DNA from: a virus | DNA: 42,149 bases | Strand: one strand, 5' to 3' | Virus record (IMG/VR): IMGVR_UViG_3300037572_000408 | Location: 1 to 42,149 of that record | In this document: piece after piece, positions 11,303-31,884 of the stretch | How positions within the stretch are numbered: the stretch's first letter is position 1 | How the letters are laid out: each line of letters opens with the position of its first letter | Program-made: the position numbers and the translations under genes | The notes under the pieces: model-generated | The model's database searches: none | The model's input: the letters and a program-made list of their open reading frames with translations, nothing else | What the model was told of the DNA's origin: nothing

Positions 11303-11580
11303 AGGTGCAGCAGTTTCTTCAGAGGAAAACAATAGAATCCCCTGAAGACATCTCGCTGCAACTAGAACTGTTTGCCTATATGGTAGCGAAACACTACGGT
11401 GTTTCATTGACGGAAGTGTATCAGATGAGTGAGGAGATTTTCACGCAATCGCTCGTTTGGGCATTGGCTGTAGAGGAAGAGCAAGAGAAGGAAGTCGCTC
11501 GTCAGAAATTCGCTGAGAGCACTGATAGTAATGAGATTATCACTTTCGATTACTCGTTCTTAGAACAGGAGGACTTCTGA
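11257..11580 (+). CDS. Tail assembly chaperone, -1 frameshift extension (gpT-like)
   Basis: The -1 frame opens after a TGA at 11254-11256 and runs to the TGA at 11578-11580. Entered by frameshift at 11275-11281 it adds 99 residues beginning VYQSEQLKVQQFLQ and gives a fusion of about 215 residues. It is helical, with SPEDISLQLELFAYMVAKHYG, a region typical of T-like chaperone extensions that contact the tape measure and tube. The first in-frame starting codon after the shift, TTG at 11299, has no Shine-Dalgarno, which argues against separate translation. The stop overlaps the ATG of the tape measure gene. The gpG/gpGT model is known for most siphoviruses; the shift itself is predicted here. 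Confidence 0.75.
   Translation: MSRGHVGGVYQSEQLKVQQFLQRKTIESPEDISLQLELFAYMVAKHYGVSLTEVYQMSEEIFTQSLVWALAVEEEQEKEVARQKFAESTDSNEIITFDYSFLEQEDF
11275..11281 (+). promoter_or_regulatory. Predicted programmed -1 ribosomal frameshift site, G GGG GGG
   Basis: Seven Gs are in register with the zero frame as X XXY YYZ (TCG GGG GGG TTT). The two frames overlap only in 11257-11302, and the slippery run lies in that overlap. A Shine-Dalgarno-like AGAGG lies 8 bases upstream at 11263-11267 and could help the shift. A downstream stimulatory structure was not worked out. Confidence 0.85.
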
Positions 11581-12389: not shown

Positions 12390-13648
12390 TGGTGGCGGCT
12401 AATGGTGTTCCGATTCGTCTGGTTCAAGAAAATGGCGGTCTAATCGAATTGGATGCCACAAGCATAACTCTCACTACCAGCAGGAAGGCTGGCGGCATGG
12501 CAGTCCCGTTCTCTGGTGGACAGAGGTTCGGTTTGGATATGAACATGCAGAAGGCCATTGTAATCGTCCATGGAGTCTTCACTGATGATAAGGAGATAGT
12601 GGGAACAGACAGTCTTGCTTCTAGCATAGTTGATTTCACGTCTGTTTATCCTGTCGGCTGGGCTAATGCGACTATTTCATTCATAGATGGTCCTACAAAT
12701 ATAACGAGAAATAATCTCGCAAATCTATTCAATACTCAGAATACTTACGATAGTAGTGGTGATACATACAGTCTCACTATCCTTCGTCTCGCAGCCTCAA
12801 ATGGGACTAAGTTTACGATATCCTTCAAAAAACTGACAAGCGGGACAGTCACCAATACGACGAATGGGTCGTATGTGATGGGTATCAATCCAGATAGTAG
12901 TAGTATAACTGCGACAGTCTTGCGCGATGGCTTCATCAGTCTGATTAATAATGAACCGACGTTGGCCGCTGTATTCACCGCTACTGCTATTGATTCAACG
13001 ATAAAGCAAGTTGCGGGCGCTGTGAAGATATCACAAGACGTTGCTGGGAAAGCAGGTAACAACGTGACCCCGGATTGGAAGTATTTGGGCGCTGGTTTCA
13101 GCGCCCCATACACTTCTGATTTCGTGGGAGGGAGAACCGTGGTAAAGAAATCCGCTGGCGACAAGGCCATGGATTTGTATGGTCTTATGAACAATATGAA
13201 GAGGACTGGCGCTGGTAAGATTGTTACTGGTGGCCTCATGGCTCTTACTGGTGGAGTAGCCACTGTTGCACTTGCGAGCACTGGTGTAGGAGTAGTAGGC
13301 ATAGGAATGACTGGAGGAATAGCGGCTACTGGAGTTGGTATGATGTTAGAAGGCACAGGAATGGGTAGCGATTACATCATAGGTATACAGATTCCATACA
13401 ATTCCACCATACAGTCAGACGGCAAGACCTATGTCGCTCGTAACTTCATCATGCCTACTGGTTGGGGTAAAAGTCCTACGGATAAGTCTAGTGCAGGGAA
13501 CACTCTCGTAGCGAGCGCAGACCTGACCAAAGACGGTAACAGAGCAGGGATTAAGGGGGTAGTTCAGAAACTGGATATCACATACGAAGCCGGTGAGAAC
13601 GTCTATGGTTTCGTGATGAACTTCATCCCAGTAGATAGGTCAATCTGA
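12389..13648 (+). CDS. Distal-tail-like protein with Gly-rich hydrophobic segment
   Basis: 419 residues. The ATG's first base is the last base of the previous stop. The N-terminal region (LIELDATSITLTTSRKAGG, FGLDMNMQKAIVIVHGVF) and the C-terminal region (GVVQKLDITYEAGENVYGFVMNFIPV) are strand-rich and could pack as one tail-tip domain. The order after the tape measure suggests a distal tail protein. Between them, residues about 272-330 are a long Gly/Ala/Val stretch (GGLMALTGGVATVALAS, GVGVVGIGMTGGIAATGVGM) that looks membrane-inserting, like a fusion-type or glycine-zipper helix pair. This is not typical for distal tail proteins. It may pierce or dock to the host membrane, or be a folded core; the sequence alone does not decide. 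Confidence 0.4.
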   Translation: MVAANGVPIRLVQENGGLIELDATSITLTTSRKAGGMAVPFSGGQRFGLDMNMQKAIVIVHGVFTDDKEIVGTDSLASSIVDFTSVYPVGWANATISFIDGPTNITRNNLANLFNTQNTYDSSGDTYSLTILRLAASNGTKFTISFKKLTSGTVTNTTNGSYVMGINPDSSSITATVLRDGFISLINNEPTLAAVFTATAIDSTIKQVAGAVKISQDVAGKAGNNVTPDWKYLGAGFSAPYTSDFVGGRTVVKKSAGDKAMDLYGLMNNMKRTGAGKIVTGGLMALTGGVATVALASTGVGVVGIGMTGGIAATGVGMMLEGTGMGSDYIIGIQIPYNSTIQSDGKTYVARNFIMPTGWGKSPTDKSSAGNTLVASADLTKDGNRAGIKGVVQKLDITYEAGENVYGFVMNFIPVDRSI

Positions 13649-13657
13649 GGTGAAGCA

Positions 13658-16600
13658 ATGCCAGTAATGAGTCGTTCCAATCACGCTTTCATGTTCGATG
13701 GGGTGACTGACAGTATAATCGTCCCACAAGGGGCAATGAGCAGACTAGGCAAGGCAACCACACAGGGGACCAAGAGCGTAGGTAACATACTAGGAGAAGA
13801 CAACCAAGCAGGCAGTCACGGCAATTTGTCTGGTGCTCTCAACAATCAGTTGTGCATCGAGGCTTGGGTGGTTCCTGACTGTGGTGGCGTTGTAGTAGAG
13901 AAGGAAGGGCAGTTCAGATTGAAAATCGGAGATGTTGATACTCCCGGACCTGCTGTATTCGAAGTCTATCTCAATTCTGACAGCGGCACTGTAGTCGAGA
14001 CTCTCTCTACAGCAAAGTCAGTGACCAGCAGAGGCTACGAGGGAACGGTATACCCTCCAGCAGAGTTCAGAGGAATCCATGATTCCTACAACAGGTATGA
14101 TGGTTCTTCTGATGATGCAACATCTTTGAACATAGACCACAGGCCGTTGATTCACATTGTGGCTACTGTAAGGTCGAACTCGATAGACCTCTACATCAAT
14201 GGGGTGTTAATGGTTCAAAAATCCTTGTTGAACAGGAATGTAACCATAGCGAATTACGATTCACATCTGTATGTAGGAGGTAAAGGAGGCAAGTTCAGAG
14301 GTGTGATGGAGGCCCTTCATATCAGTAGCGATTTTTCAGAGGAGGCTATTGACAGGTCTGCACCACTCAGGAACGAGAATACGTTATTGCTTTACAGGTT
14401 CGAGGAGCCAATCGCTCCTATCTCAGGGACCTACAAGTTCTCTGCCATTGCCAACAACAGCACCACTATGGATGGCGCTACTGTTACCATATCTCAAATC
14501 ACAATAACCACAACTGATGCTATTACTCTGGCCAAGAAACTGACCGGACTATCAACGGTATCAGGTAACTATGTCTTTTCCAAGGACAGCACTGGGACTC
14601 ACAAGTATTCGGGTGGGGACTACAAGGTGGTGGATTACCAACAATCAACTGGCACTCCGGTGATGCACAGCATTTCCCACACTCCATACAATCTTCTCAT
14701 CAATGCTGGGGGCATAGACTTGGACACTCACAAACCGAACGGTAAACCACCAGAGAGGGTCAGACTCCATAACATAAACACAACCACTGGAAACATGCTA
14801 GTTTCCAGCATCCATCTTGATTTTCCCAATTCCAGCAATGGGCTTCGTAGCGCCTTACACACCAGAACAACAGGATTGGACAATCACTTCGTAGTAATAG
14901 GCGCTGACTTGCTCATCGACAATGCTACAGGAAAGCCATACCAAGACCCTCATTTCTCCACACAGATAATTGACAGGACGGGTCAGATGGTCATTGACGA
15001 GAGCCCATTCGCTCAACACGGTTTCGTTTATTCAAGCAACATGGCTAATACCACTGATGACAGTGATAATCCCTTCGCTGTTGTCTGGCCTGCTACGGTT
15101 GATACTTCTTTTCAGATAGGACATAGTGGCAGACACATACTCAATCACGTTGATGGGCACGAGTTCCTGAGAATGTTACCAAGAGCGAACGAGGAAATAA
15201 TTGACCAGAGAATAGACGGGTCTGCTGATTTGATTGATATCATATACGATGTAGGAAGAACGGGAGCAGGCGAACAGATATCAGTGAACAGTCGTGTAGA
15301 CATCTTCAGAGAACAAGATGTTTTCGAAATCAATAAAGTCGTCAATTCCTCTAGATGTGAGGCGCTCTTCAACAACGGTCTCACCAAGGAGAACAAGGAA
15401 CTCTTGGCGATAGGTGGAGTTAATTTCGATTACAAGGCTTTCATGCTCAAAGGCCCAGTTCCAGACAATCTGGATAATATCAATGCTGAGACCAGAAGGC
15501 ATCACTTACGACCAAGTGAGGAGAGTCGGGTAGCCATATTACATGTTCCAGCACTTTCTACTTACGACTTAGCCCCATTCGTCAAAATTTACTACAACGC
15601 TATTGATTTGACTGGCGCAAGCATGAGTGGCACTATCCAACCCCTGTTGATGGTGGAAAAGACCGTTCCTGCAGGGACCACAGTGGTCACAGGAACCACT
15701 ACCATATACGAATTGATAAAAACTGCAGTGACCAGCGCTTCTATCACTGCTACCCTTTATGCTCCCGGAGGTTACATAGAAGCGAGATTCGAAGGTCAGC
15801 AATTAGTCGGTAATCTGATACAATCACATTCTCTTGTTGGAGATACGAGTGAAGGCTATGAGTCTGATGACGAGTTGGATGAGAGTCTCACTCCTATCAA
15901 CTACAAACCACTGACTCCTACAGGTATTACTGTTAGCGGTAATCAGAATGCTGGTGGCGGCAATACGATAACCACAACAGGTAATACAACTGGTAACGTC
16001 AATATCGCAGTGGATGATACTATCTACACCTCCAGTCTGGTTTTCGTGGGTATAATAGCATCAATAGGAAATGATATCACATTGGACGAGAATCGAGCAG
16101 TTGCCCTAATCAATGGGGAGGAATTGTATGTAGGGGTTCTTGCAAACATAAATCCCAATACTACTCCACAAATCATAACCGCTTCCCATTCACCGAGCAC
16201 AAGTCATGATTCGGTATTTCATCGTATAGTGATTGATACATTCCATGGAGACAAAAATCAGACTTTGACGGACAAGGGGGAGTTTCACAGAAGGGAGCCT
16301 AGCGTGGTCCTCGATTCTCCTTCCAACGGTGAATTCGACAAGGGGGTCACCTCTTCCAATACACATATTCACGAGATGTTCGATATTATTGACAATGGTT
16401 CCATCAGTGGTAACAAGGAAGGAATGCGTTTGTTCATACAGCCTTCTGACAGAAGAAGAGTGAATCAACTCGCAAAGATACGTTCTTCCGTTAGTGATGG
16501 TGAGGAGGCGAACTTTGTATCACTCATGTATCTCATGTCGAGAGCCAGAGTCCGTTCTGTCAAAGAGTCAGACAAGGAAGGTGAGAACTTCACCTCTGTC

Positions 16601-19600
16601 CATTGCGTGGGTCTGTCAGAATCCACAGCCAACAGGAACGTGAGCGTGAGAGGTAAAGGCAGCCCGGACTCTCACATAGTCAAGGAGATAGAACCCAATG
16701 CGCCTGTCGTCACGGTTACTCTCGGTGGTCCCGGACAAGGGGCTATGGACACCAAACCGACGTTTGACCCCAGTCCGTTAGCACGCTTGCCCTTCTCCAC
16801 GAGGAGGAACTGTGCTACACTTGGTTACCGAATCACAACTACGACTAATGGTGGTAAAATCTACGTCAAACCACTCAACAACGAAGCAGACGACCTTGCG
16901 TCTTGGGGGACTTACGGATTCCCGATGAAGGGCAGAGTCTACTTGGAGGACGGTTCTAATGCTCTTTACGATTCCAAGGACGGAGACGAGTTCGTATTCA
17001 CTGCTGCTAGCGCTTTTGGCGATGGTAAGTTCTTGTTAGCGAACGGAACCGAGTTCCAAAATTTCTTTCAATGGTTGGAGGCAACAGAGACAGCATTAGG
17101 CGCAGTCTCTAATGGTAGCGACATGTATATCTCAACGTCGTTCTTCAATGACGAGTTCTTCGATGAGTCATCGCTTGCTGAGGATGGGACCACTGTCAAT
17201 GACAGGATGTTCCAGACTATGAACGATGTCTCTCATGATTACCAGTTGGGAACACAATACGCGAGTACGAGAGCGATAGTGGAGATTCCATTCTTTGCTA
17301 ACCAATTCTTCGATGAGCCTGAGAAGGGTATTCTACCCGGACCAGACAACTCCTTCAAGATTCATGTTGATGCTACTCAGACTGCACACACATACAACCC
17401 CAGCCCTGTAGGTAGGAGACACAAGGGAGTAGAGCCTGCAGATAGAGAGGCGAGGTCTTCCTTCACGATGAACAAGGCGGAGAAGAAGTTCACGCCCATA
17501 ACCCGTATTGACAAGTTCGAGTTAGTTGCCTCATTCTATCACCTTCACCCAGACAATAGCGAGTTGTTCCACAGTGTAAGTCTGAGCGATGCATCATACC
17601 AGAACGTCGGCAGTAACGTGAGAAACTACCGTAAGGTGTTCCTCGCTAATGGGGAATGGGCATATTACGAAGACATACCATTGGTGGGCACACGGTATCT
17701 CAAAATACCCAATGATAGCAATTGGGGTTTCTCAAGCGGTTTTGTAGAAAGCGCTGTAGTGGGAGCAGCCGTTTCACCGGGTGGCCCTTCTCTATCAGAG
17801 GGACTCATACCCATAGGCTCTGACAGCATAACCCCGTCCTCTGATTTCGAGAACAGAGGTGAATACTACCATGACAGTGCAAGCGCGAAGACACAGGGAG
17901 GCAATGTGGATTACGGTATCAGACAGTATGTCAGCGCGGTGGAGTTCAAGGCTGGACCGGAAAGCAATCCTCACGCGCCTAAAGTGATGAGTGGTAGAGC
18001 CACAGGCGTAGTGACTAACGTAGAGTGGTCAGTATTGGATGGCGCTAGTTCTAAGTTCATTCATGAATTAATTGTAACTATGAGTGATGAGGATATGGCT
18101 CTGTTCCCAGATTTAGATTATGATGATATGAATACATATACCTTCAGTTCTGGAGAGTATCTCTATCAAGCAGATGCAAGTGCTTCTCTGTCTCCGAGCA
18201 GCATGCATTACTATGGAAGAATCAGCAAGAACACCTCTAATGAGGTTGTATCTGCCAACACTCTAATGTTCGTGTTTTATGATACTGGTAACAGTAAGCC
18301 TTCTTGGGTTACCAATCTGCCCGGTAATGAGATAACGCTCACTAAGAAGACGAGGAGCATATTCGGAAACGTAAGTGGTGCTCCTCCAAGCAATACAACC
18401 AAGGCTGCTAACAATGAGATTATCGCCAAGACTTTCAAACCAGCAGGAGATGATGCTTGGACTATCTCAGCATCAACTCTCGTCTCAACCTGCACTATTA
18501 CCAATGGGAATGGTAGATTGGCCGGTTCGAACACAATATCGGGTCTGAACCTCAGAGAGGGGGATTCGATATACTCAGAAGAAACTGCGAGTAAGATTCT
18601 ACATATCGGAACAGTGTCTCATATAGAGGACTATGATGACGGAACTTACACAGTGACTCTGACTGGGAGTTGCCAAAACGATACCAGTAGCAAGCCTCTT
18701 CGTATTGAAATGCCGCAGGTAGATGATGATGAGGCAATCCTGAACAAAACTTGGAATTATCCATATGCTCCGGGTGGACTGCGTAGTGGCGATACGATAT
18801 GGGCCAACATGAGTATGAACAACCCACATTCCATAGAGGGACTCTTCTCTAAGAGCAGAGGGGTTCTCAATGAGGCATTAGTGTGGACGGGGTTCAACGG
18901 TGGTAAGGGAGCATTAGCCACAAGACCGAGAGAGAGCATACCGCTTGAAAACTTCCTAATTGGAGACACCTGTCTTGAAACTGCACAGAATTACGCCCAG
19001 CATGTGAACAAGACTGTAGAGGAGAATTACAAGGTTCTCGGTCTGACAGCGAGTCAAGCGCCCAAGGTCGCTTATGTGGACCCCTATCTCTCAGAGGATG
19101 GACATGCTCGTGTTCTTCTCTATGATGTCGCCCATGACAGGGAGTTCGTGGCATTCCAAGACCTGCATATGCAGGTTCAGACTAGCGCTGATGCTGTCAA
19201 GATTGGATGGCCTAAGAAGATGGTGATTGGTACAAGCAATGTAATCTCAGATACGATGGAATACGCCGCTACACTAAATGGCGGAGGACCTTCTTGGCTT
19301 ACTACTCAGATAGACGTTGCTAACGGCTTCCCAAGCGAGAACCCATACATACGCAGTGTTCAGCAATCCAAGTTCATCGAGAGTGCCTATGCTCATGATA
19401 TAGCGAACAGCCTATCCACTCGATTACTTACTTCACTCAATAGCGGGACTCTGCCGAACAGCATGTTCAACTATGCAAGTGGCTCTTTGTCTCCGGGCAT
19501 ATATGGAAAGGCTCATGGGCATCACGTCCATGATGGGTATTCGATATACGGTGCTTACCAGACCTTCTCAGAAGGAGACAGCGTCTTACTCAGAACCAAC

Positions 19601-22600
19601 GACAATACAGTCAATCCACTCATAGCGAATCCAGACCACAGTTTCTCAAGAACGAAACGCTCTGTATCAGATAGTTTTACTACCTCTCTAGTCAAGTTGA
19701 GGACAGATACTAGCATTTCTCATACTCTCAGAGACCCATCCACGTTCTTCGATACCCCAGACGGAACTCGCGTCATACCTGCTTTCCTTTGCCTTAAAGG
19801 AAAAAGAGCAAATGCACTCGACCTTACATCACATTCGGAATCTCGTTTGCAGCACCTCAAACAGTGGACGGACATGGACTTCGTGAGGAGATTAACGGTA
19901 GACTGTGGCTCTGTGGCTCAGAAGGACGGAGTGGTATCTGTAAAGTCTGCTGCATTGGAGATTGTTCGTCAAATCAACCAAGCAGGAGCGCCTAAGGGAC
20001 AGATAGTAGTGGACAAGGACACTACAGGCAGTGCTCATGACCCGACTGCTTGGTGGGACAGTGACAAGGCGTTCTCCACTCGTGACCGAGGGACTCACAT
20101 GGGCTATGTCAGAGCACACATAGGCAGAGAGGTGCAAGACAAGAACGGAAATATCGGATTCACTGTGGTGATACATAGCACTGTGCCGGGAGCGAGTGGT
20201 AGGAACTTCTGCGTTTGGCTGGATAACAGCAAGGGACAATCAGTCTATCAGCCTGAGTTCCTCATTGGACATGGAGGACGTTGGAGGAACTTCTGGGCAT
20301 TGCCTGAGGAGAAGGAGGGAGAGAACATGCATCCCGCTCCCATGCCTCTCAACAAGCATGGTAGACCTTTCGCTCCTGTCACCACACTCACACAATACGT
20401 CACCCCAGAGGACTCTGGTGAAGATGTAGTGAGCAATACCGACTTCGTGACCTTCGATGATAATGTAACAGATGCAGATGCCTCTGTGTTGAGGGGAACA
20501 TCTCACCATTTGGGTAGTGGTAAACAGTTCAATACAGTCAATACCGAGTCTTTCGAGACTGAGGGCTCATCATCAGTATTGGTAGAGGGTCTGAGAGTAG
20601 GTAAGCGAGCGATAGGGAGAGTGAACTTCGGTGGACTTGTAGCATCTGGCATTCCCGGTTGGGCTCCAGACGCAGGTGTGTGGGGATTCGGCAAGAAGGG
20701 CTCTCAAAAGTTCAGAGGCAGATACGGCAGTCTCACTGATGTCTCTTATACCAGTCATACCAATTCCTCTGACTTGAAGTCGGATGTAGTGGGAAACTCC
20801 TCTTTGTATGGACTGCAGTTCGAGGACCACAGAGGAGGAAAACACGGTCTGAGATTTATCTACAGGACTATGGGTGAGGGCTTCGCAAACGAGAACACCA
20901 CCCTGCCAGACACAATATCCAACGAAGTGTGTGTTTTCATTGACGACAGAGACGTGGGTCTTGGTGGATTCACTATGGGCAAACACATGTATGGTAGTGG
21001 AGACGCTTCTGGTAGATTGGACATTTCTGGAGGGTCTGGCTCTGCTGTTTCTATTACAGACCAAGCCTATTGTGGCAACAGGTGGAGAGGGGTTAGTGCG
21101 CCTAGCATAGCGGTGAATTGCACTATAAGCAAGAGCGCTAATGCTACAAGTCTTACTGTGAGTTTAGAGAGACCGTTTCAAAACGGAGACACTTGTGCAC
21201 ATCATGACATACTCGGTTATCTCGGCTTTCCTCTGAAGAATGGAGTCATCCAAATCACGGATTCTCAAGATGGAAAGGGGGGCATGACCTTCTCCTATAC
21301 TCATAGAACACAGAACAACAAAAGTGGACCACATACTTTCTTCGGGATAAAGAGTTCACAGAATGGAGACACATTTGTTAATTCATATTTGATTTCACCA
21401 TTATTGAACTGGACCACTATAGTCACTGACGAGTTGCTTGCAGTAATCTCAACCGCAGCAATCAACGCTGATGATTCAGATATCAACAATCCAAAGGGTT
21501 TAGCATTCGATTGCAGAGAGATGTATGCGACAGATGGTAGGACGTTTGGAGAATGGGGAGTTGCTGCAGACGCAATTATAATCAGAAGTTATGACACAAC
21601 GAAACCAGTCAAACCCCTTTCTGACTTCTTCTATGCCTCGTTTCATCGGGACATGGGAATACAAGCAGCACACATAGAGTTAGGAGAGGTTGAGAAGACT
21701 GATAATACTGGTTCTGGTTGGGCTTTCGGGACATCTAGAGCCCTTTCAAATACCGATATCAAAAATCAGAAGAGAATGGCTTGTGGTTACATACCCGACA
21801 CAGTCTTACAAATCATAACAAGAGGCAGAGGACCGAACACCAATACAGCAACACCACTACTCGTGGACTCCTTCAACAACCCGGTGGACACCAATGAATG
21901 GAGAAGGAACCTCAAAGGAGAGAGTTTCACCAGACACAGTGGTGACCACATCCTACCGATGATAAACAACCCGATTGTTGTTTACGACAACTCTGCTGGA
22001 AATAGTGATAATTGGGATGGAACGACCAAACAGTTCCCTTTGGCTCATGAGATGTGGAACTTCCTGATACCGGCAGGGGAGGAGGGAAACACAGACAGAG
22101 TTCCATCCTTCGGTGAGAAGAAGACAATCTACATGGCTGATAAGCAATTCATCGTAGTCGAGGGTTTGAATCCCGGCACTGCTTCTTTTGTGACTAACAA
22201 GACTACATTGGTATGGTATGAGGAAGGCAGGTCCGAGGATTGGCCTACTGCTGATATAGACGACACACTTGCATTCTCACATTTCGGAGACATCAAGAGA
22301 ACAATGGAGTTCGACGGGCTTCGTTCTCTCGGTAGTGTTTTCTCAGAACCCATAGTTCATTTCAAAGGAGGGAAGGGCAGTGTGGACCACAGCGTTCCAC
22401 TATTCTTCGGTGGTGGATTCAGCGGTGTGACCCTCGATATAAACGACGGGACTATGAATGACTACTCCACATTCTATACCCATCCTTATGCGAACGGACC
22501 CACAGGGACCTCAGGAATACAGAATGCCAACGAGATATCCACCAGTTTCGCTTTGTTGGACTGCAATGCGATGTTCGCTTTCTTCCCCGGCGCTGCATTC

Positions 22601-25600
22601 TGCAATCAGCATCGTGGCAGCATACTACCGCCGTTCTTCAACAAAGATAGCATCCTATCCCCGGACCTCTCAAAGACAGGGACTACGATAAACACCGGGC
22701 ATCCCAACAGCGGTAATACCTCCCCATACAATCACTCCACGACATCGCTCAGAGTGAGAGTTCAGAAACCAAGCCCACTCATACTGAGATTCGCTCATCC
22801 CACAGCGCGTTACGAGGACCACAAGAACAGCAGTGGCACGAGCAATGTGGAGAACAAGACCACATACATCGTCTTCGGTCCCGGACAGGCATTCCCGTTC
22901 ACCCAAGAGATAGCAGATAGCGCTAACATGAGTGGTGCTAACACAGAGCAGCCTCATCCCGGAGCAGTGGTGACGATAGGTAACACTTGGTCCAAAGTCC
23001 CAGTGTCTGGGACGGTTAAACTACCGAATCACATACAGAACTACGATGGCTTCTACATGCCTGAGTCCTCGACATATCAATTGGCGAGAGGCAGATTCCA
23101 CTGGCGTTCCACTATCAACTGGGAGCCACCACAAGGAAAGCCCAATGTGGCTATACTCAAACAAGGACCAGAGTCAGGAAGGATGTATGGGACTCATTTC
23201 AACGCAGACACAGCCACATCCGGAATAAACGACGAACTAGACAGGGCCCATCCAATGAGGCACTGCTCAGTGATAGGGCATGGTGTGGCAATGGCTGCTG
23301 ATATGGTCTTCCACATGGATGGAGGCTACCATCCCGGAGGACACTGGATGGACAACCAAATCACATTCAACCCGCCTCATCCCAAGAGCAATACAATCCT
23401 GCAAAAATGGGGAGCAGCAACACAGTTGCACTCAAGCGCATACAGAGTCGCTGGTCCAATAACCACGAAGGTATTGGGTTATGCAGCAGCCGAAGGAGAT
23501 TTGGTAGGCGCTGATGTGGATATGGAATACATCATCGTTGATGCGACTAGATGCCAGAATGGAGAGGAACTCGCCACAGTGATGGGTATGGCAATCAACA
23601 CCTATCCCGGAGCAGGGGCGCTCAAAGCGATGGGAGGGACACACATGCCGTCTATGGGTAATTCCATGCGACAGGACCGATATGGTTGGGTAGAAGTCGA
23701 ATGCACCAATATCACCAATTCAAATACAACGCCAAGCAACAATCACATCACTGTGGAAATGAGCGGCTATACTGCTAACAATACAGTCAATAGAGACCGT
23801 TTGGAACAGATACCGGCATGCGGCTGGCTGAGGACTGCTGCTGGCGGCTTTGCTCCTTACTATGCGAGAGAGGTGAATAACGACTCTACTCTCAAAGTGA
23901 GGTTCTACATTGCTCCTAACAGGATAAGCGGGCAGATGAAGTTTGAAGACAGAACCACTTGGTATGATACTGATGGAACTATCAGTGACTTCCCAGCCAT
24001 AAGCGCTAGTGATGTGTTACATGTCTGGTCGAAAGCAGGAGTTCATCGTTACAACAACGAAGTAGCGGCAACACGCGACCATATGTGCCAGACTCACTTC
24101 TCTGGAATCGTTGATGCCATAGACCGCACCAGACCGATAGGAGCAGCAGGATGGGCCGGAGAGCGCTATTCCTACTTGAACAGCCTCAAAGTGGGCACAG
24201 AAGGGTATGCTGGGGGTCTAGGCGCTTGGCATCCGATGTTAGGATTCTCTCCTTATGGCAGTGCCAGTTCTGCTATGACTGCATTTGGTAATCTACCAGT
24301 GGTGGCTCCTATGCCCAGAAGTCCTGAGAGTCTACCACCAATAGATGGTATAGGAACCAATCTTATGACTTACATGAATAATCCGTATGACTCTTCGGTT
24401 GGGTTTAATATCACTAATGATGGACAAGCAACATACGCAAGAAAGACATCTGATAATGATGGGCCAGACACACTCCACTCAAAACCCCCGATTTACGTTG
24501 ATACCACACTACCGGATTTCATGACTCATCCACAAGGGGTGTTGGGTCGAGCATTCCTCGTCGTGAGTTACGAGTGCGAGAGCGCTCTCATAGCAAAATA
24601 TGACAGAGATGGCATAACTGCTCTAGGAGACTGGTTACAAGTCAAAGGGGCGGCTGCTAACAGTGTTTCAAATCCCATACATTATGCTGGCACGACACGT
24701 TGGGACGAGAGGTTCCACGGTCAAGACCGTTTCATCGCACCTGCGAATGCTGGGCCTAATGTAGAAGCGCTGGTGCATAAGACTCCTACTGTTCCCTCAA
24801 TCACGTTTTCCGCTACGCATGGAGCAGATGCTGCGCCATTCAATGCCGAATACTTCCTGCATGGGGCTGCCGCCACCAACACCACAGTGGAAAACGCCAT
24901 ACCCGGATTGCACAAAACAGGAGATATGCTCTTCGATATTGACCACTCCATAGGCTCTTTCTTCTTGGAAGACTCAGGAGTGACGCGCAATGTTGCAGAT
25001 GATTTCTATGAAGATGTGGATTATACGACAGAATATGATAACGGTTCTACTTTGAGAGTCAATGATTTTTGGGCAGGAGATGTGAATGCATACGCCCTCT
25101 ATGATAGAGCGCCTGCGAAAAACTTCACGGTAGAACAAATAGTATGGAAGAGAATGGATGGCGGAAATCTCAGTCTTCCTGCAATTAACGCACGAGGGCT
25201 TGGCGCTGTCCCTTGGATGACGAGGGTGAAAAACGGCGTAGCGTATACTACTGGAGAGAAGATTTTCGGGAATGTGAGATTTTCTTTCGAGACTACAAAC
25301 AGTGCTATGCTACCAATTCTACAAGCACAGGAAATAGCCCATCCTCAGTTAGCGAGCAAAAATCCCCTGTTGATAGGAAACGTGTTGAATATTCCGAACG
25401 AGGAAATGCAGTTCGAGGAAATCACCGTCAAGGATGATTCCGGGCAAGAGCACATAATCGAGGGCGGTAGCCCACTGGGGACCATCATTCGAGGTTTCAG
25501 CAAAGTAACTGACAGAGAGGCCAAAGGAATGTCCCCGTCTCTTGCAAACAGTGGTATAGCCCCCAATCTGAAAATACAACTACCAGACCCGAACAGCATA

Positions 25601-28600
25601 CCCGGAAACATCATCGTGAGGTCAGGATTCGATAGACTGCAAGGTTATCAGAACGAAACTATGGGTTCAGGAGGAATGATGCATGCTGATTTGAATGAGG
25701 ATTATCTGGGTAATTTGTTCGACAACAGCGTCTCTGGTCCGAGAAAGGGACCGACATACGAAGACCACAACTGGGAACACATAGACCCATTGACCAAGGA
25801 CAGCACTACTGCTGGTTGGAAAGAGACCACAGACAACGCTCCATTGAGAACCAGTTACGAACAGCATGACAGGACTCTCTACTTCCACGTTACGAAAATG
25901 GGGCACAGTCACACTCACCGTTATCCGACAGTTTTTTCACACGAAAATGGTGTAGAGACAAGAATTTTAACTGCGAGTATTTTCAGTGGGACAACTTTGA
26001 CAGTCAATGCTGCAGTTTTAATGCCGACCACTAATACGGATATTTTTGCTGCTGATTTCGGTAGCAAGGAAATGGCTCATACAACGACTGGTAGGCGTTT
26101 TATCAGAATCTACAATTCATCTACTGAAGAAAGTGTAGTGGCTTCGTATACCGGAATAAGTGGACAAACATTCACTGGTGTTGTGGGTGACGTTGATTTT
26201 ACAGACTTCATGGCTGCTCAAACTATTACGAATCTGAAAGTGGTTCCTTCCTATTACATCCCCGCAGGAAGCAATCGCTTCTTCGCAGCACGTCGTTTAC
26301 GAGACCACGCTGAAGTGAGTGGAAATTCCCCAGACATGGCAAAAACCCAGTATTCGACAGGGACCTACGGGACCATCAATACAGAGACTCTCGCTTACAA
26401 CATCTACAACAAAGCGGTGATTACACCAATGCCTCTACCGAGAATGGGGCATCATTTCGTCACACCGACCATGCCCATGCTTCCGGGTCATTGGGCTCAC
26501 CCTGTATACCAAGGACTGTATCGTAGTCATCTTGCAGAAAATGCATCACTGCGAGGCTCTGTAGATAGGAATCTACTCAAAGAAAATACGACAGCGACCA
26601 CAGAAAAAAGTGATATAGCGTCAGGAGTATCTAATTATTTTCATCTACAAGATGCAGAAATTGCATTCGGTTCGTTGAATGCTGCGCCTAGTGGTCCAAG
26701 CGATATTCATGGTGGAGCATTCACTTTGATGTTCGAAAGTAAACTGAAAAACGATGGTTACGGGGTTTTAGCATCTACTGGTGTTGCTGGAAAAATCAAC
26801 CAACAAGGAGGCCATACCGTAGTTTTGGAAGCCTCTGGAAATTATACATTGGACGATTTTTTCCCAGACCCAGCAAGAGTAGGAGCGTATCAAATCGTCA
26901 TACAGCCGAATACTTTTTCCAACCAATTAATCGGATATCACGTTGATGGTGGCAGTTATACTCTAACAGGACAACAGGTGAATACAGTCATAGGACGCAA
27001 ACCAGCGACTTCTGGAATAAGCGGCACAGGCGCAGTTGCCCTTTTATTGGCTCAAACAACTCAAGCAGATGTAAGAGGTTGTGAGATTTTCATCAATGAG
27101 GTTATGCTGGATATCAATCCTGACCACGGTGAACAGTTCACCAACATACCTCCTTTGTTACTCTACAACCCGTTTGGGGTAGAAGGCACTGAATCACCTG
27201 CTTTCACCAGAAGAACACTTCCTTATCATCCAAAACTGTTCAGTAATTCCACACCGGGCTACACTCTCAATATTCCTTGGTGGAGCATAGTTCACAAAAT
27301 AGCCCCAGATGATGGTTCATCTAATAATTTCAAGCATTTAACACACCATCGTCTGGATAACTACTACATGATGAAGAGAAGTACCTTCGGAAGTATAGGA
27401 GTGCAATTAACAATTGCTGGATATCCTTCGAAATACCCTGCGATATACTCACATGTATTGCAGAATACCTCGATAAACCCTAAGTGTATAGTCAAAACTA
27501 TACATGCAGAAAGTAGTGGGACTAGAGAAATCACAGTAGATGATGCAAGTGCATTTCCAGAAACCCCACAATATGGTCAATTGTTAGAATTTACCGACGC
27601 AGATGGTAACATACAGACTCTACCATACACCAGAAGGTATGGATTGCAAATAGGAACTATCAATGAACCTAAGAAGTTTACATCAACTACAGTCTCTGGC
27701 TCTTTCTGGACTAAACTAACAGCATTACTCGCCGCTTCGGTCGAAACAACGCTCAGACTGACACATCCATACAACAACCTATCAGCAGGGAAAGTGATGA
27801 CTGATACGAATAATAGCATTTTCACCATGATTCTTCCACAAGTGGAGAAGGGGACTAGAGATACAACTGCATTACATATTCCAGATGCATACTTATGTCT
27901 CTGGCATTACAATCTAGGTAGGCCACATACTTTCTATTCCGACAGTTCTCGTACTTGGGGTAATCTAACATCTGATAGAGCAGTAGATAAGAAACCGTAT
28001 AATTGCATGCCTGAACATTTTGAGACCATACATTATCAGGATTCAGTATATGCAATGAGTTTAGGTCCATTTGATTTCCGAATGAAGAGTCCTAATCCAG
28101 AAGATAAAGATGGTGTTGCATCCACTGGTGCTGAAATTCATGCATTTTCTGGGTACGAAGCACAGGGTGGAACTAATTTCGATAGTCAGAAAATAATGTT
28201 CAGCAAGTTCTGGCCATGTGGTAGTCGTGGTGGGCCTCTCACAAGTAGGCTTGACCTATACACACAAGCAAGCATATCATGGAATATACCCAGAAAGTAT
28301 GCTTCCAACGATTTCTACTTCTGGAATGATGAAGACGGGTTGGATGAAAACTATGCTCAGGGCTCTTCTGGAATCACTTTCACGGCTATGGGCTCAGGTT
28401 ATAGTGGTGATAACAGAAAATATCCGTATGGGTGGCGTATCGCTGTGCGTCAAGCCTGTAACAAACCGACTTGGGGTATTCTCACAGGTAGAGGAAAACT
28501 GGAGGACGATGCTTCTTCTGATAATAATTTCACTGTTGATTACGCATCTGGCCCACTCGTTCAACATGAGGCCATGACATGGGCTTATGCTGGTGGAGAT

Positions 28601-30454
28601 ACTGGCTCGCAGTCTAACGTTTCTTACACTACTACCTATGTCGGTGTAATGGAGAGACAGACTAATTTCGCAGGCATGTTAGGTTGCGACAAACCAGAAT
28701 GGCAAGTGAAGTATAGCGAAGGCAGAAGAATGACCAGACCGTTCGGAACGCCTATCAGAACTCTACTCTCTAATTCTAACATGAATAAGGACTGGTGGGG
28801 GGAGGTCGCAGGAAAGGGCATTTACAGCCTCGCTGAGGCCGCGCAGTATTATTTGGTGGATTGGTGGGGCAATGAGCGTGGAGAGGACGTAAGGCGTGCT
28901 CCAGTACGTGGATTTGGCATCAGACCAGCATGGGACTGTGGTGATGTCTACGAATACGATAGAGCCAACAATAGAACTCCTCACGCTAGAATCTGGAATT
29001 ATGGTAAACCAATCTACGAGGTTCTCACCGGCATCAGCGCCCCAGTCATTGACTCTTCTGGAAATCTGGACAACGAACCACCATTGCTATGCGGTAGGTC
29101 AAACGCTGTAAATAACACTGATACCAACACTATGGTGGATGTTTTTGCGCCGACTCATTCCATGAGGATAGGAGACATGGGCAACGGTAGAGGAGTCAGA
29201 TATCCAATTCAATTCAATGAAGATATTCTGACGGAACTTTCTGAACCAATACACACTACAGGGTTAGTTTTGAGCAGTAACACGGCAGAGCCACCAGCCG
29301 TAACAGGGCTGTTACGCCCCCGTAACGATGTGTTACAGGCCGATGAAATACCAAGAGGAATCAGTGCGAGGCTCGAAATCTCCGAACATGGGTTACTGAA
29401 ACCAGATGCTGTGGTGAGCGATAGGGTTGAGGAGATAATCGGGACAAGTCCCCACAAGGACGCAGTAAGCCGAAACAGTCCAAGAATAGGCATAGACGGA
29501 CATAATGTGGAAAGTGTGGAGAAGGACCATATCGCAATCAATACAGAGGCCCACAGCCTGCATACTGACCGCAATGTAGGACAGAGAACCATCTTGCATG
29601 GGTGCTTACTAGGAGGGTCACAGACTCTAGCGCATCTCGACTTGACCAGTTTGGCCTTCGGTGTGCAACCTCGCTCTGCTCTTAGATTCAGTCATACGAG
29701 CAACATGAGCCCTTTGGGAGGTAACTATATTTTGGAAACTAGGAACTATGGGAATCCTTTCGATGATACAGGTTGGGGTTATGACGGGCTTTCGGGAGCA
29801 GTGAAAACCACTAACCCATATCAAAATGTTGATTTCAATAGAACAACAATCAAAAATAATCAGAGTGATAAGAGCATCAAATGGCTACTCAGACCTGTGA
29901 GATTACTAGATAAGAATCATGTAGAGATGTTCAGAACCCTACCCGCTACTATTTCAGGAACTCCCCAATACAACAACACAGTCAATAAAGGAACTAACAC
30001 CCCTACTGATTATTTCAGAGCATCTGCAGGAGGAAAATACGGTATATACACCTACGAAGTGACTACTCCGAGAGTCGCCTCCAATAATTTTCCAAGTTCG
30101 GCGGCTCCAAACACTAATGCTCCATATGTCCCAGTCTTCTACATGGCTTCAGGTTCTTCCACCATCACCCCTACCAGTCAAGGACCTAAGATTCTGGGAA
30201 CAGAAGTAGTGGGAGTAGACAAGTTTGACAAGACGACTATTACGAGTCCAGTAACACGTTTGGTGATGAGTGAAAACACACTACAACACTATCGTTCAGA
30301 TGCACCTCGAAGAAGACAAATAGCAGAAAACGAGAGTGAAATCAAAAGAATGGACTTTTCTGTCAAGCCTAGATTTAGTCAAGCGTTACATCCGAAGGGG
30401 CACAAAGGTGATGTGACGTTCAATGTTAGCGACCATAGTGGTGATGCCGCATGA
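13658..30454 (+). CDS. Giant tail-tip/adhesin-like virion protein, 5,598 residues, LamG-like N-terminus
   Basis: A single open frame of 16.8 kb, preceded by GAGGTGA at 13647-13653 and ending in an ATGA overlap with the next gene. Residues about 5-250 look like a LamG/concanavalin-type jelly roll (HAFMFDGVTDSIIVP, LCIEAWVV, HIVATVRSNSIDLYINGVL, SHLYVGG, NTLLLYRFEE). A second weaker LamG-like stretch lies near residues 4345-4480 (GGAFTLMFESKLKNDGYGV, EIFINEVML). The rest is Asp/Gly/Ser/Thr-rich beta protein with few cysteines and no obvious tandem repeats. It includes a His-rich part near residues 3195-3245 (DMVFHMDGGYHPGGHWMD) and HSHTH near 4082. No signal peptide or membrane helix was seen. 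Its place between a distal-tail-like and a hub-like gene points to a baseplate or tail-tip component, probably with carbohydrate- or S-layer-binding modules. Function beyond that is unknown. Confidence 0.6.
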   Translation: MPVMSRSNHAFMFDGVTDSIIVPQGAMSRLGKATTQGTKSVGNILGEDNQAGSHGNLSGALNNQLCIEAWVVPDCGGVVVEKEGQFRLKIGDVDTPGPAVFEVYLNSDSGTVVETLSTAKSVTSRGYEGTVYPPAEFRGIHDSYNRYDGSSDDATSLNIDHRPLIHIVATVRSNSIDLYINGVLMVQKSLLNRNVTIANYDSHLYVGGKGGKFRGVMEALHISSDFSEEAIDRSAPLRNENTLLLYRFEEPIAPISGTYKFSAIANNSTTMDGATVTISQITITTTDAITLAKKLTGLSTVSGNYVFSKDSTGTHKYSGGDYKVVDYQQSTGTPVMHSISHTPYNLLINAGGIDLDTHKPNGKPPERVRLHNINTTTGNMLVSSIHLDFPNSSNGLRSALHTRTTGLDNHFVVIGADLLIDNATGKPYQDPHFSTQIIDRTGQMVIDESPFAQHGFVYSSNMANTTDDSDNPFAVVWPATVDTSFQIGHSGRHILNHVDGHEFLRMLPRANEEIIDQRIDGSADLIDIIYDVGRTGAGEQISVNSRVDIFREQDVFEINKVVNSSRCEALFNNGLTKENKELLAIGGVNFDYKAFMLKGPVPDNLDNINAETRRHHLRPSEESRVAILHVPALSTYDLAPFVKIYYNAIDLTGASMSGTIQPLLMVEKTVPAGTTVVTGTTTIYELIKTAVTSASITATLYAPGGYIEARFEGQQLVGNLIQSHSLVGDTSEGYESDDELDESLTPINYKPLTPTGITVSGNQNAGGGNTITTTGNTTGNVNIAVDDTIYTSSLVFVGIIASIGNDITLDENRAVALINGEELYVGVLANINPNTTPQIITASHSPSTSHDSVFHRIVIDTFHGDKNQTLTDKGEFHRREPSVVLDSPSNGEFDKGVTSSNTHIHEMFDIIDNGSISGNKEGMRLFIQPSDRRRVNQLAKIRSSVSDGEEANFVSLMYLMSRARVRSVKESDKEGENFTSVHCVGLSESTANRNVSVRGKGSPDSHIVKEIEPNAPVVTVTLGGPGQGAMDTKPTFDPSPLARLPFSTRRNCATLGYRITTTTNGGKIYVKPLNNEADDLASWGTYGFPMKGRVYLEDGSNALYDSKDGDEFVFTAASAFGDGKFLLANGTEFQNFFQWLEATETALGAVSNGSDMYISTSFFNDEFFDESSLAEDGTTVNDRMFQTMNDVSHDYQLGTQYASTRAIVEIPFFANQFFDEPEKGILPGPDNSFKIHVDATQTAHTYNPSPVGRRHKGVEPADREARSSFTMNKAEKKFTPITRIDKFELVASFYHLHPDNSELFHSVSLSDASYQNVGSNVRNYRKVFLANGEWAYYEDIPLVGTRYLKIPNDSNWGFSSGFVESAVVGAAVSPGGPSLSEGLIPIGSDSITPSSDFENRGEYYHDSASAKTQGGNVDYGIRQYVSAVEFKAGPESNPHAPKVMSGRATGVVTNVEWSVLDGASSKFIHELIVTMSDEDMALFPDLDYDDMNTYTFSSGEYLYQADASASLSPSSMHYYGRISKNTSNEVVSANTLMFVFYDTGNSKPSWVTNLPGNEITLTKKTRSIFGNVSGAPPSNTTKAANNEIIAKTFKPAGDDAWTISASTLVSTCTITNGNGRLAGSNTISGLNLREGDSIYSEETASKILHIGTVSHIEDYDDGTYTVTLTGSCQNDTSSKPLRIEMPQVDDDEAILNKTWNYPYAPGGLRSGDTIWANMSMNNPHSIEGLFSKSRGVLNEALVWTGFNGGKGALATRPRESIPLENFLIGDTCLETAQNYAQHVNKTVEENYKVLGLTASQAPKVAYVDPYLSEDGHARVLLYDVAHDREFVAFQDLHMQVQTSADAVKIGWPKKMVIGTSNVISDTMEYAATLNGGGPSWLTTQIDVANGFPSENPYIRSVQQSKFIESAYAHDIANSLSTRLLTSLNSGTLPNSMFNYASGSLSPGIYGKAHGHHVHDGYSIYGAYQTFSEGDSVLLRTNDNTVNPLIANPDHSFSRTKRSVSDSFTTSLVKLRTDTSISHTLRDPSTFFDTPDGTRVIPAFLCLKGKRANALDLTSHSESRLQHLKQWTDMDFVRRLTVDCGSVAQKDGVVSVKSAALEIVRQINQAGAPKGQIVVDKDTTGSAHDPTAWWDSDKAFSTRDRGTHMGYVRAHIGREVQDKNGNIGFTVVIHSTVPGASGRNFCVWLDNSKGQSVYQPEFLIGHGGRWRNFWALPEEKEGENMHPAPMPLNKHGRPFAPVTTLTQYVTPEDSGEDVVSNTDFVTFDDNVTDADASVLRGTSHHLGSGKQFNTVNTESFETEGSSSVLVEGLRVGKRAIGRVNFGGLVASGIPGWAPDAGVWGFGKKGSQKFRGRYGSLTDVSYTSHTNSSDLKSDVVGNSSLYGLQFEDHRGGKHGLRFIYRTMGEGFANENTTLPDTISNEVCVFIDDRDVGLGGFTMGKHMYGSGDASGRLDISGGSGSAVSITDQAYCGNRWRGVSAPSIAVNCTISKSANATSLTVSLERPFQNGDTCAHHDILGYLGFPLKNGVIQITDSQDGKGGMTFSYTHRTQNNKSGPHTFFGIKSSQNGDTFVNSYLISPLLNWTTIVTDELLAVISTAAINADDSDINNPKGLAFDCREMYATDGRTFGEWGVAADAIIIRSYDTTKPVKPLSDFFYASFHRDMGIQAAHIELGEVEKTDNTGSGWAFGTSRALSNTDIKNQKRMACGYIPDTVLQIITRGRGPNTNTATPLLVDSFNNPVDTNEWRRNLKGESFTRHSGDHILPMINNPIVVYDNSAGNSDNWDGTTKQFPLAHEMWNFLIPAGEEGNTDRVPSFGEKKTIYMADKQFIVVEGLNPGTASFVTNKTTLVWYEEGRSEDWPTADIDDTLAFSHFGDIKRTMEFDGLRSLGSVFSEPIVHFKGGKGSVDHSVPLFFGGGFSGVTLDINDGTMNDYSTFYTHPYANGPTGTSGIQNANEISTSFALLDCNAMFAFFPGAAFCNQHRGSILPPFFNKDSILSPDLSKTGTTINTGHPNSGNTSPYNHSTTSLRVRVQKPSPLILRFAHPTARYEDHKNSSGTSNVENKTTYIVFGPGQAFPFTQEIADSANMSGANTEQPHPGAVVTIGNTWSKVPVSGTVKLPNHIQNYDGFYMPESSTYQLARGRFHWRSTINWEPPQGKPNVAILKQGPESGRMYGTHFNADTATSGINDELDRAHPMRHCSVIGHGVAMAADMVFHMDGGYHPGGHWMDNQITFNPPHPKSNTILQKWGAATQLHSSAYRVAGPITTKVLGYAAAEGDLVGADVDMEYIIVDATRCQNGEELATVMGMAINTYPGAGALKAMGGTHMPSMGNSMRQDRYGWVEVECTNITNSNTTPSNNHITVEMSGYTANNTVNRDRLEQIPACGWLRTAAGGFAPYYAREVNNDSTLKVRFYIAPNRISGQMKFEDRTTWYDTDGTISDFPAISASDVLHVWSKAGVHRYNNEVAATRDHMCQTHFSGIVDAIDRTRPIGAAGWAGERYSYLNSLKVGTEGYAGGLGAWHPMLGFSPYGSASSAMTAFGNLPVVAPMPRSPESLPPIDGIGTNLMTYMNNPYDSSVGFNITNDGQATYARKTSDNDGPDTLHSKPPIYVDTTLPDFMTHPQGVLGRAFLVVSYECESALIAKYDRDGITALGDWLQVKGAAANSVSNPIHYAGTTRWDERFHGQDRFIAPANAGPNVEALVHKTPTVPSITFSATHGADAAPFNAEYFLHGAAATNTTVENAIPGLHKTGDMLFDIDHSIGSFFLEDSGVTRNVADDFYEDVDYTTEYDNGSTLRVNDFWAGDVNAYALYDRAPAKNFTVEQIVWKRMDGGNLSLPAINARGLGAVPWMTRVKNGVAYTTGEKIFGNVRFSFETTNSAMLPILQAQEIAHPQLASKNPLLIGNVLNIPNEEMQFEEITVKDDSGQEHIIEGGSPLGTIIRGFSKVTDREAKGMSPSLANSGIAPNLKIQLPDPNSIPGNIIVRSGFDRLQGYQNETMGSGGMMHADLNEDYLGNLFDNSVSGPRKGPTYEDHNWEHIDPLTKDSTTAGWKETTDNAPLRTSYEQHDRTLYFHVTKMGHSHTHRYPTVFSHENGVETRILTASIFSGTTLTVNAAVLMPTTNTDIFAADFGSKEMAHTTTGRRFIRIYNSSTEESVVASYTGISGQTFTGVVGDVDFTDFMAAQTITNLKVVPSYYIPAGSNRFFAARRLRDHAEVSGNSPDMAKTQYSTGTYGTINTETLAYNIYNKAVITPMPLPRMGHHFVTPTMPMLPGHWAHPVYQGLYRSHLAENASLRGSVDRNLLKENTTATTEKSDIASGVSNYFHLQDAEIAFGSLNAAPSGPSDIHGGAFTLMFESKLKNDGYGVLASTGVAGKINQQGGHTVVLEASGNYTLDDFFPDPARVGAYQIVIQPNTFSNQLIGYHVDGGSYTLTGQQVNTVIGRKPATSGISGTGAVALLLAQTTQADVRGCEIFINEVMLDINPDHGEQFTNIPPLLLYNPFGVEGTESPAFTRRTLPYHPKLFSNSTPGYTLNIPWWSIVHKIAPDDGSSNNFKHLTHHRLDNYYMMKRSTFGSIGVQLTIAGYPSKYPAIYSHVLQNTSINPKCIVKTIHAESSGTREITVDDASAFPETPQYGQLLEFTDADGNIQTLPYTRRYGLQIGTINEPKKFTSTTVSGSFWTKLTALLAASVETTLRLTHPYNNLSAGKVMTDTNNSIFTMILPQVEKGTRDTTALHIPDAYLCLWHYNLGRPHTFYSDSSRTWGNLTSDRAVDKKPYNCMPEHFETIHYQDSVYAMSLGPFDFRMKSPNPEDKDGVASTGAEIHAFSGYEAQGGTNFDSQKIMFSKFWPCGSRGGPLTSRLDLYTQASISWNIPRKYASNDFYFWNDEDGLDENYAQGSSGITFTAMGSGYSGDNRKYPYGWRIAVRQACNKPTWGILTGRGKLEDDASSDNNFTVDYASGPLVQHEAMTWAYAGGDTGSQSNVSYTTTYVGVMERQTNFAGMLGCDKPEWQVKYSEGRRMTRPFGTPIRTLLSNSNMNKDWWGEVAGKGIYSLAEAAQYYLVDWWGNERGEDVRRAPVRGFGIRPAWDCGDVYEYDRANNRTPHARIWNYGKPIYEVLTGISAPVIDSSGNLDNEPPLLCGRSNAVNNTDTNTMVDVFAPTHSMRIGDMGNGRGVRYPIQFNEDILTELSEPIHTTGLVLSSNTAEPPAVTGLLRPRNDVLQADEIPRGISARLEISEHGLLKPDAVVSDRVEEIIGTSPHKDAVSRNSPRIGIDGHNVESVEKDHIAINTEAHSLHTDRNVGQRTILHGCLLGGSQTLAHLDLTSLAFGVQPRSALRFSHTSNMSPLGGNYILETRNYGNPFDDTGWGYDGLSGAVKTTNPYQNVDFNRTTIKNNQSDKSIKWLLRPVRLLDKNHVEMFRTLPATISGTPQYNNTVNKGTNTPTDYFRASAGGKYGIYTYEVTTPRVASNNFPSSAAPNTNAPYVPVFYMASGSSTITPTSQGPKILGTEVVGVDKFDKTTITSPVTRLVMSENTLQHYRSDAPRRRQIAENESEIKRMDFSVKPRFSQALHPKGHKGDVTFNVSDHSGDAA

Positions 30455-31884
30455 CTAAATTGATGGCGAGCGCTGGAAAGTTTGATTTCGATGTAGTTGA
30501 AATCATGACTGAAGCGAGACAACCAGTTTTTGTAGACAACGCAGTGCATCATGGTCTTGTTTCAAGTCAGACTTCTAACAAGCAGAAAGTCACCATAGAA
30601 AATAGGAATAACGCCACTTACAATGTCTTCAGTGAAAATGCTTATGAATTGGTAGAAGGAGACGGTTTCGTTCAATTGACTCACAAGAGGGGGCACGGTT
30701 ACACAAGCAAGATTGCACCCTTTTACCAAAACTCTGCACTTTCTCCTACATCTAAGAAGCCAATACTACTCTACAACGATGCTGATATCACCAAGAGGCT
30801 CACATTCAGTTCTATAGAGGCTTCCACAGATGGAGTGAAAATGAATCTCAGAAACATGAAGGGGAGGTCTTTGAATGACATAGGGCTCAAGGGAGACGCT
30901 GTCCATCTAGGTGACCCTATAGATGTGGGTTTCAGAACGAGTGACCTCGCTATGAAATTGGGAACTGATATGGTTGGGACTCTGACATCCGTGTCTCTCG
31001 GTAGTTTGAGAAGCCCAAGCAATACCAATGAAGGAAGAAGAAAGCATACGACTAAGTTCCTCGCTCAGGATTTTTACGGGGTGACGTTGATATCCGCATT
31101 GAAGTTCACATCGAGACACGATTCTAATATCGTATACTTCGACAGGTTCGCTAATCTGTTATACACACCGTTAGTTTTCACAGAAGCAAGTAGAGAAATC
31201 TCAGAGTTCGGGAGAACTGGTAACGAGGAGACCAATCCGATAGACAACACCGAGAACAAGATAACAGTTGTGGGAAATTCCATATCCTTGAATGAAGTAG
31301 CAAGCGTAACTGTAAGTGATTCCGAGAGACAACAAGGAAGATTTGATTTGGATATACAAGAGAACGTCACGAATATTTTCGATGCGACTGTGAAGAGCAA
31401 AGCAGATGCTAAGAGAGTAGCAAGACAGATTCTGAAATCCAACGCTATACACAGAGGTTCATTGAGGAGCAGTGGTCATCCAGATACTTGGGACATGAGA
31501 CCGGGTAAAGTGGCTCTGTATAAAGGGGTGAAAAGACTAATCACCGAATCAAGACACACCCTTACTACCAGAATGTCAGACTTCAATTTCTTAACTGTGC
31601 AGAAAGGTATAGAGGGAGTGTTGCATGGGGTAAGTGAGGGAATGATTGCCTCTTCAGCACCTCATAACCCAGATAAGATTTCCCAAACCACAGAGGAAAA
31701 TCTCTCATTATTCTCCTTCATTCAGATAAACATCATTCCTATCATCTCTGTAAGAGCGGTAGAAGTAGAAAATACGAAGTTCCTCATCGGCCCCGCTGCG
31801 GGTAGTGCAACCATCGGGCGAAGCCTCAACAATGTGATAGGAGTGAACAAATTGCATACATTGACTTTCAAGGGTGAAGACTGA
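30451..31884 (+). CDS. Putative tail hub/baseplate protein
   Basis: 477 residues. The strongest signal is at about residues 310-400: ATVKSKADAKRVARQILKSNAIHRGSL, then DTWDMRPGKVALYKGVKRL, then TESRHTLTTRMSDFNFLTVQKG. This resembles the last domain of gp27/gpD-like hub proteins, where an alpha helix with AxxxARxxL is followed by a 'P-G-xxV-x-(V/L)-x-G' strand and a closing strand pair. The N-terminal half has strands of hub type (FDFDVVEIMTEARQ, YELVEGDGFVQLTHKRG). Hub trimers join the tail tube to the tip and guide the cell-piercing parts. It follows the giant gene with an ATGA overlap and leads into a small tail protein with TGATG overlap. The family call is by pattern only. Confidence 0.5.
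   Translation: MTKLMASAGKFDFDVVEIMTEARQPVFVDNAVHHGLVSSQTSNKQKVTIENRNNATYNVFSENAYELVEGDGFVQLTHKRGHGYTSKIAPFYQNSALSPTSKKPILLYNDADITKRLTFSSIEASTDGVKMNLRNMKGRSLNDIGLKGDAVHLGDPIDVGFRTSDLAMKLGTDMVGTLTSVSLGSLRSPSNTNEGRRKHTTKFLAQDFYGVTLISALKFTSRHDSNIVYFDRFANLLYTPLVFTEASREISEFGRTGNEETNPIDNTENKITVVGNSISLNEVASVTVSDSERQQGRFDLDIQENVTNIFDATVKSKADAKRVARQILKSNAIHRGSLRSSGHPDTWDMRPGKVALYKGVKRLITESRHTLTTRMSDFNFLTVQKGIEGVLHGVSEGMIASSAPHNPDKISQTTEENLSLFSFIQINIIPIISVRAVEVENTKFLIGPAAGSATIGRSLNNVIGVNKLHTLTFKGED

Follow-up and report, generated by a model that had tools for sequence, protein, structure and literature searches.

A 5,598-residue protein encoded in the tail module of a magrovirus-like virus as a candidate single-chain tail-tip scaffold

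A single gene of 5,598 codons fills 16,797 of the 42,149 bases (39.9%) of the viral DNA analyzed here, the whole of which (IMG/VR record IMGVR_UViG_3300037572_000408, positions 1 to 42,149) is referred to as the window. The gene lies on the plus strand at 13,658–30,454, begins with an ATG, and its only stop codon is the one at its end. It is one gene in one frame, is conserved among relatives, is located in the tail module close to the tape measure gene, and encodes a LamG domain. Based on gene order, conservation, and the LamG domain, we propose with moderate confidence that the 611-kDa product forms, as one chain, a scaffold of the tail tip and carries an attachment domain. It would thus be a virion protein that stays uncleaved at the tail tip and binds the host. 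The first-pass annotation had described one giant gene covering about 40% of the window, and both the frame and its retention in related viral contigs bear this out. In the longer record G001 (86,731 bases), a copy 99.7% identical takes up 19.4% of the sequence.

The capsid and replication genes indicate the kind of virus involved. The window encodes an HK97/SU10-like major capsid protein (2,762–3,904, plus strand; phrog_24667, E = 1.2e-52; SU10_MCP) and an S78-like prohead protease (1,331–2,743, plus strand; Peptidase_S78, E = 9.3e-10; head maturation protease in PHROGs). The capsid protein is 30.8–32.1% identical, over 99% of the query, to those of eight Haloarcula virus (druskavirus) records. 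In G001, the terminase and portal genes lie upstream of the genes seen in the window, and the structural module goes on into fibre genes. The replication module of G001 is on the opposite strand and encodes matches to DNA_pol_B (1.3e-34), ERCC4 (1.5e-17), PDDEXK_1 (4.5e-21), and Cpn60_TCP1 (8.6e-126), together with a clamp-loader-like AAA protein. Magroviruses are described with such a replication gene set in the ICTV profiles. The druskavirus-related capsid and this replication module point to a virus of the magrovirus kind (Magrovirales-type, infecting marine archaea), as far as genes can indicate. The best full-length match of the virus chaperonin (43%) was in a Poseidoniaceae MAG contig, which could itself be viral. 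As a separate observation, the ORF at 123–1,301 corresponds to the C-terminus of a longer frame in G001 (L039), one of 1,751 residues located between the portal and prohead protease genes. That frame has a weak DNA ligase match (E = 8.2e-5, under the Pfam cut-off), and the HCTV-1 gene in a like place is annotated with a zeta toxin domain.

Relatives of the giant gene were sought with four of its parts. Residues 2001–3000 as the query retrieved 22 loci, 12 of them with complete frames of 5,390–5,616 codons, and residues 4801–5598 retrieved 12 loci. The core-block profile yielded 274 relatives in 296 stretches; among the best 80 of these, 37 had complete frames (5,173–5,734 codons) and two were broken. 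With the C-terminal profile, 110 relatives were found in 150 matched stretches, and in all of the 80 best loci the frame was open up to the 5' edge of the available DNA. The N-terminal profile matched 27 of 40 contigs; in the 13 without a match, no more than 13.3 kb is present, and about 15 kb would be required. Each intact copy is one frame, about 5,100–6,360 codons long and 43–100% identical to the window copy: 51–100% over 29 full or near-full copies (the window and 28 others) and 43–56% in seven more, one of them truncated. Part of the extra length is due to small inserted modules (L120, L131). In these two loci, a small module carrying a GM-x-VSGTGIP-like motif sits at differing positions of the giant.

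Conservation is spread over the whole chain. Across 22 aligned copies, 953 columns are invariant. Between L007 and L019, which are 91% identical, dN/dS is 0.11 over 5,537 codons and 0.04–0.18 per 500-residue bin, low in every bin; the two flanking genes gave 0.10 and 0.07, and the tape measure gene 0.22. By this codon-based measure, the giant gene is evidently under purifying selection. Compared with L009 and L011, the window giant is 57–58% identical, the upstream gene 39–43%, the downstream gene 45–47%, and the capsid protein 84%; the tape measure of L011 is 26% identical. The strongly conserved core block at residues ~2000–2250 (19,655–20,407, plus strand; FDTPDGTRVIPAFL ... ENMHPAPMPLNKHGRPFAP) stands out in the alignment of relatives and belongs to no known family. 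A C-terminal peptide, residues 5571–5598 (30,368–30,451, plus strand; PRFSQALHPKGHKGDV...DHSGDAA), is also kept. H[S/T/N]GD occurs close to the C-terminus in 80/80 of the closest loci, and H-x-G-[D/E] in 48 of the 57 closed ends of a wider set. Conserved histidine-rich blocks, such as HMDGGYHPGGHW, were noted as well. A conserved HxH metal site was considered and dropped, as the GHSHTH block is not conserved in L215–L217.

Contigs chosen by their capsid gene, independently of the giant, gave the same picture. A capsid-gene scan matched 500 stretches, and 39 contigs from the best 80 were searched. The N-terminus of the giant was found in 26, all with at least 12.7 kb past the capsid gene start; the 13 others have at most 10.05 kb there. 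In a second scan, capsid identities of 69–83% were followed by a gap down to the 31–32% of haloviruses. This set of 22 records contained the start of the giant in 18 of 20 marine contigs and in neither of two halovirus records, the two marine misses ending 10.7–10.8 kb past the capsid gene start, short of the place of the giant. The core block was matched in 14 of the 22, and the six marine contigs without it are short of DNA there. Retention in related viral contigs, a check suggested along with the first annotation, was thus found wherever the DNA reaches the place of the giant (26/26 and 18/18 in the two sets). The profiles of the giant matched nothing in the whole records of HCTV-1 and HVTV-1, a search of a phage record collection gave no match, and none of 26 pattern-matched stretches in genome contigs, inspected for host or provirus copies, was a relative.

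Five records (L246, L270, G077, G116, and G117) have an interrupted giant frame, and in all five homology carries over into another frame. The twin of L270, L271, is 99–100% identical and has an intact giant of 5,439 codons. Over 19.9 kb, G116 and G117 share 99.9% identity; in both, the giant is spread over three frames and a further structural gene likewise occupies at least two. Gene fission into three genes was considered for this pair and dropped, because homology is unbroken across the junctions, the second junction lacks a start codon, both records represent one virus, and a second gene is in several frames. The broken copies resemble errors of sequencing or assembly, or recent lesions, rather than gene fission; programmed frameshifting or genuine changes of frame could also be the cause. 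Neither a standard tail-protein family nor, in the relatives, a clean division into ordinary genes was found, the two results that had been named at the outset as speaking against a novel giant.

The genes around the giant are arranged as chaperone-like small genes, the tape measure gene, a 419-aa gene, the giant, a 477-aa gene, and fibre-like genes. Relatives have the same order from the tape measure gene to the fibres. The assignment of the 269-aa tape measure (11,580–12,389, plus strand), made by eye at first, holds: it matches several tape-measure families of PHROGs, the best being phrog_4197 (E = 2.1e-11). Its length ranges from 208 to 445 aa in eight aligned loci. A short tail can be inferred from the tape measure length; at about 0.15 nm per residue, 269 residues suggest a tail near 40 nm, and the range of 208–445 aa suggests about 30–70 nm. 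The upstream neighbor (12,389–13,648, plus strand; 419 aa) matches no family, and the downstream neighbor (30,451–31,884, plus strand; 477 aa) overlaps the stop of the giant in an ATGA. This tight spacing is common: the end of an upstream gene is no more than 22 nt away from the start of the giant in 26 of 29 loci, and a downstream gene starts 0–3 nt past the last sense base of the giant in 21 of 29.

The two neighbors had been labeled 'distal-tail-like' and 'hub-like' by eye, and profile searches gave these labels no convincing support. Against tail-tip, hub, and baseplate families, nothing significant was obtained for the giant or for its neighbors in the window. The best PDB profile match of the 477-aa protein is a phage hub protein at a non-significant E of 0.12. 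One aligned member of the downstream gene matches phrog_1887 ('tail protein') at 0.0027, in an alignment where two of 12 rows are only 13–16% identical and are perhaps other genes. Neither neighbor matches HCTV-1 gp125 or gp127, and segments of the giant compared with profiles of its neighbors reached 1.5% at best. Small beta domains that seemed by eye to be repeated in the giant and the upstream gene were not borne out. Two further observations were made in the window. A gene at 10,342–10,983, amid the tail genes, encodes a SAP domain (E = 3.4e-9) after a Glu-Pro repeat array. At 39,286–42,149, 'NIAIG'-like units are repeated in a frame that stays open past the window end and, by eye, has the look of a trimeric beta-roll fibre; a matching end was found in L038.

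The one domain assigned to the giant is a LamG-like (concanavalin A-like) jelly roll at residues ~1–250 (13,658–14,407, plus strand). Pfam matched Laminin_G_3 (PF13385) in 18 of 22 members at E ≤ 0.01, with a best value of 7.4e-9; the window copy scores 25.6–26.2 bits, under the curated cut-off of 27.6. A structure model of residues 1–1180 (pLDDT 68.9, pTM 0.65) consists mainly of strands. In its N-terminal part the model resembles PAPP-A (Foldseek, E = 2.5e-7), laminin LG5, pentraxins, and neurexins in fold, and VIA-align gave a Z of 18.4 over 202 residues with an rmsd of 2.9. In the model, the N-terminus thus adopts a concanavalin A-like jelly-roll fold. The match lists for residues 1–1180 are filled by LamG; they barely cover residues 507–1180 and have no bearing on other families. 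Of the two LamG-like regions first suggested, the N-terminal one stands. The internal one is not supported: it reached 0.2% in a profile comparison with the N-terminal LamG and was matched by Pfam in 0 of 12 members. The model that covers it (residues 4330–5529) is, at a pLDDT of 36, unusable.

The rest of the chain agrees with the initial impression that most of the giant resembles nothing recognizable. In the parts scanned with Pfam and PHROGs, no known family beyond LamG was significant, and PHROGs gave isolated weak matches of unknown function in single members. PDB profile searches returned no match at E ≤ 1 for the core block and nothing significant for the C-terminal and N-terminal parts. 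For the window copy, residues 1181–5598 were assigned no domain by Pfam, PHROGs, or PDB profiles, and about 79% of the chain is without a usable fold. GC content is uniform along the gene. The protein gave no internal BLAST match at E ≤ 1 and no tandem array was found in the gene; the best of 630 segment-pair profile comparisons reached a probability of 65%, a weak likeness between small beta segments.

Our preferred reading, that of a tail-tip scaffold, would work as follows. A marine archaeal virus with a short, non-contractile tail would make one very long virion chain, whose many chained beta-rich domains would pack onto the end of that tail. The N-terminal LamG domain would contact the host surface, with finer host recognition left to the downstream fibre genes, which are more variable. 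The conservation of the giant favors a structural part of the core over a rapidly evolving whisker. LamG alone is ambiguous, as it also occurs in proteins other than attachment proteins. Haloarchaeal druskaviruses have a related capsid and, by profile, no giant, which means that some tails of this kind do without it. It is possible that the protein represents a new kind of machine. A more far-reaching proposal, which we put forward tentatively and regard as doubtful, is that, in a clade of abundant marine archaeal viruses, several baseplate and tail-tip subunits that are separate in other tailed viruses have become fused to a single, non-repetitive chain exceeding 600 kDa, an essential core gene product forming a one-piece tip larger than the tail tube that it caps.

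The protein could instead be a precursor that is cleaved after synthesis, possibly by a virus protease, to give several tail-tip proteins. The great length, the chained unlike segments, the length variation through inserted modules such as those of L120 and L131, and the protease gene within the same module would fit such a polyprotein, but that protease is of the prohead type, no cleavage-site repeats were noticed, and the stop-free single frame of intact relatives fits both readings; we consider cleavage unlikely. A classical receptor-binding whisker or adhesin, with host recognition as its main task, would account for the N-terminal LamG domain and for the position before fibre-like genes. 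Against it are the lack of tandem repeats and of strong internal homology, the even conservation, and the low dN/dS in all bins with no hypervariable tip seen, and this reading seems improbable. Still less probable is that the giant travels in the virion and is delivered into the host cell, or that it is an enzyme for crossing the envelope. The histidine-rich blocks would be in line with this reading, and giant chains travel with the DNA in other phages, e.g., N4; however, the parts scanned contain no enzyme family of Pfam or PHROGs, the gene follows the tape measure gene rather than lying beside the portal gene, and no 19-residue window of the protein exceeds a hydropathy of 1.6, so that it has no membrane-like segment. 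A cell-wall-crossing machine, as first envisaged, gains no positive support, with no enzyme, peptidase, or membrane segment found in the giant. That the ORF is an artefact (arising by chance, from a chimeric assembly, or from a misread genetic code), for which nothing but its unusual size speaks, is already refuted, since independent contigs keep it with protein-level selection, and one frame in relatives at 43–70% protein identity together with a dN/dS of 0.11 is far beyond chance.

To our knowledge, no magrovirus has been cultured, and their manner of attachment is not known. If the giant forms the tail tip, a single part claims roughly a fifth of the genome, and virion proteomics and cryo-EM would have a clear target. 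PMC10160649 ranks magroviruses with the most common viruses in the surface ocean and counts Laminin_G_3 as an auxiliary metabolic gene in four magrovirus groups. These published hits may represent the N-terminal domain of the giant; as Laminin_G_3 is here the first domain of a structural-module protein in 18 of 22 members, that annotation may need correction. In the literature covered on magroviruses, marine archaeal viruses, and giant phage proteins, we found no description of the giant gene, namely in PMC10768690, PMC12999244, and PMC13108676 and in portions of PMC5628999, PMC8651126, PMC5332604, PMC12324425, PMC4981710, PMC7886860, and PMC10160649; PMC5434244 and PMC11706807 lie outside this coverage and may mention it.

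Several known systems resemble the giant in part. Its first 250 residues share their jelly roll with LamG proteins (PF13385; the folds of PAPP-A, PTX3, neurexin, and laminin LG5), but LamG makes up less than 5% of the chain. Toxin binding domains among the fold matches share the same jelly-roll class only, and, among viral LamG proteins, the HVTV-1 protein L7TI36 (367 aa) is a LamG-like match by fold (E = 3.5e-5). UniProt A0A1B1IU10, an entry without a name in BFVD, a library of predicted viral structures, is a true relative, with 52% identity over 1,192 columns and a TM-score of 0.71 to the model of residues 1–1180. Repetitive giant adhesins have tandem repeats of one domain type, which the window giant lacks. 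Very long single virion chains are present in other phages, such as the virion RNA polymerase of N4. The giant shares this trait with the N4 and crAss-like proteins but matches no polymerase family. Giant transcription proteins of crAss-like phages are mentioned in portions of PMC7886860. The closest counterpart by position is in the Druskaviridae. HCTV-1 has a related capsid protein (31–32%) and prohead protease, as in the window virus, and its gp127–gp130, for which BLAST, phmmer, and segment profiles gave no match to the giant, follow the tape measure gp126 in the same place; there, four tail-tip genes of 697, 439, 1,045, and 270 aa stand where one giant stands here.
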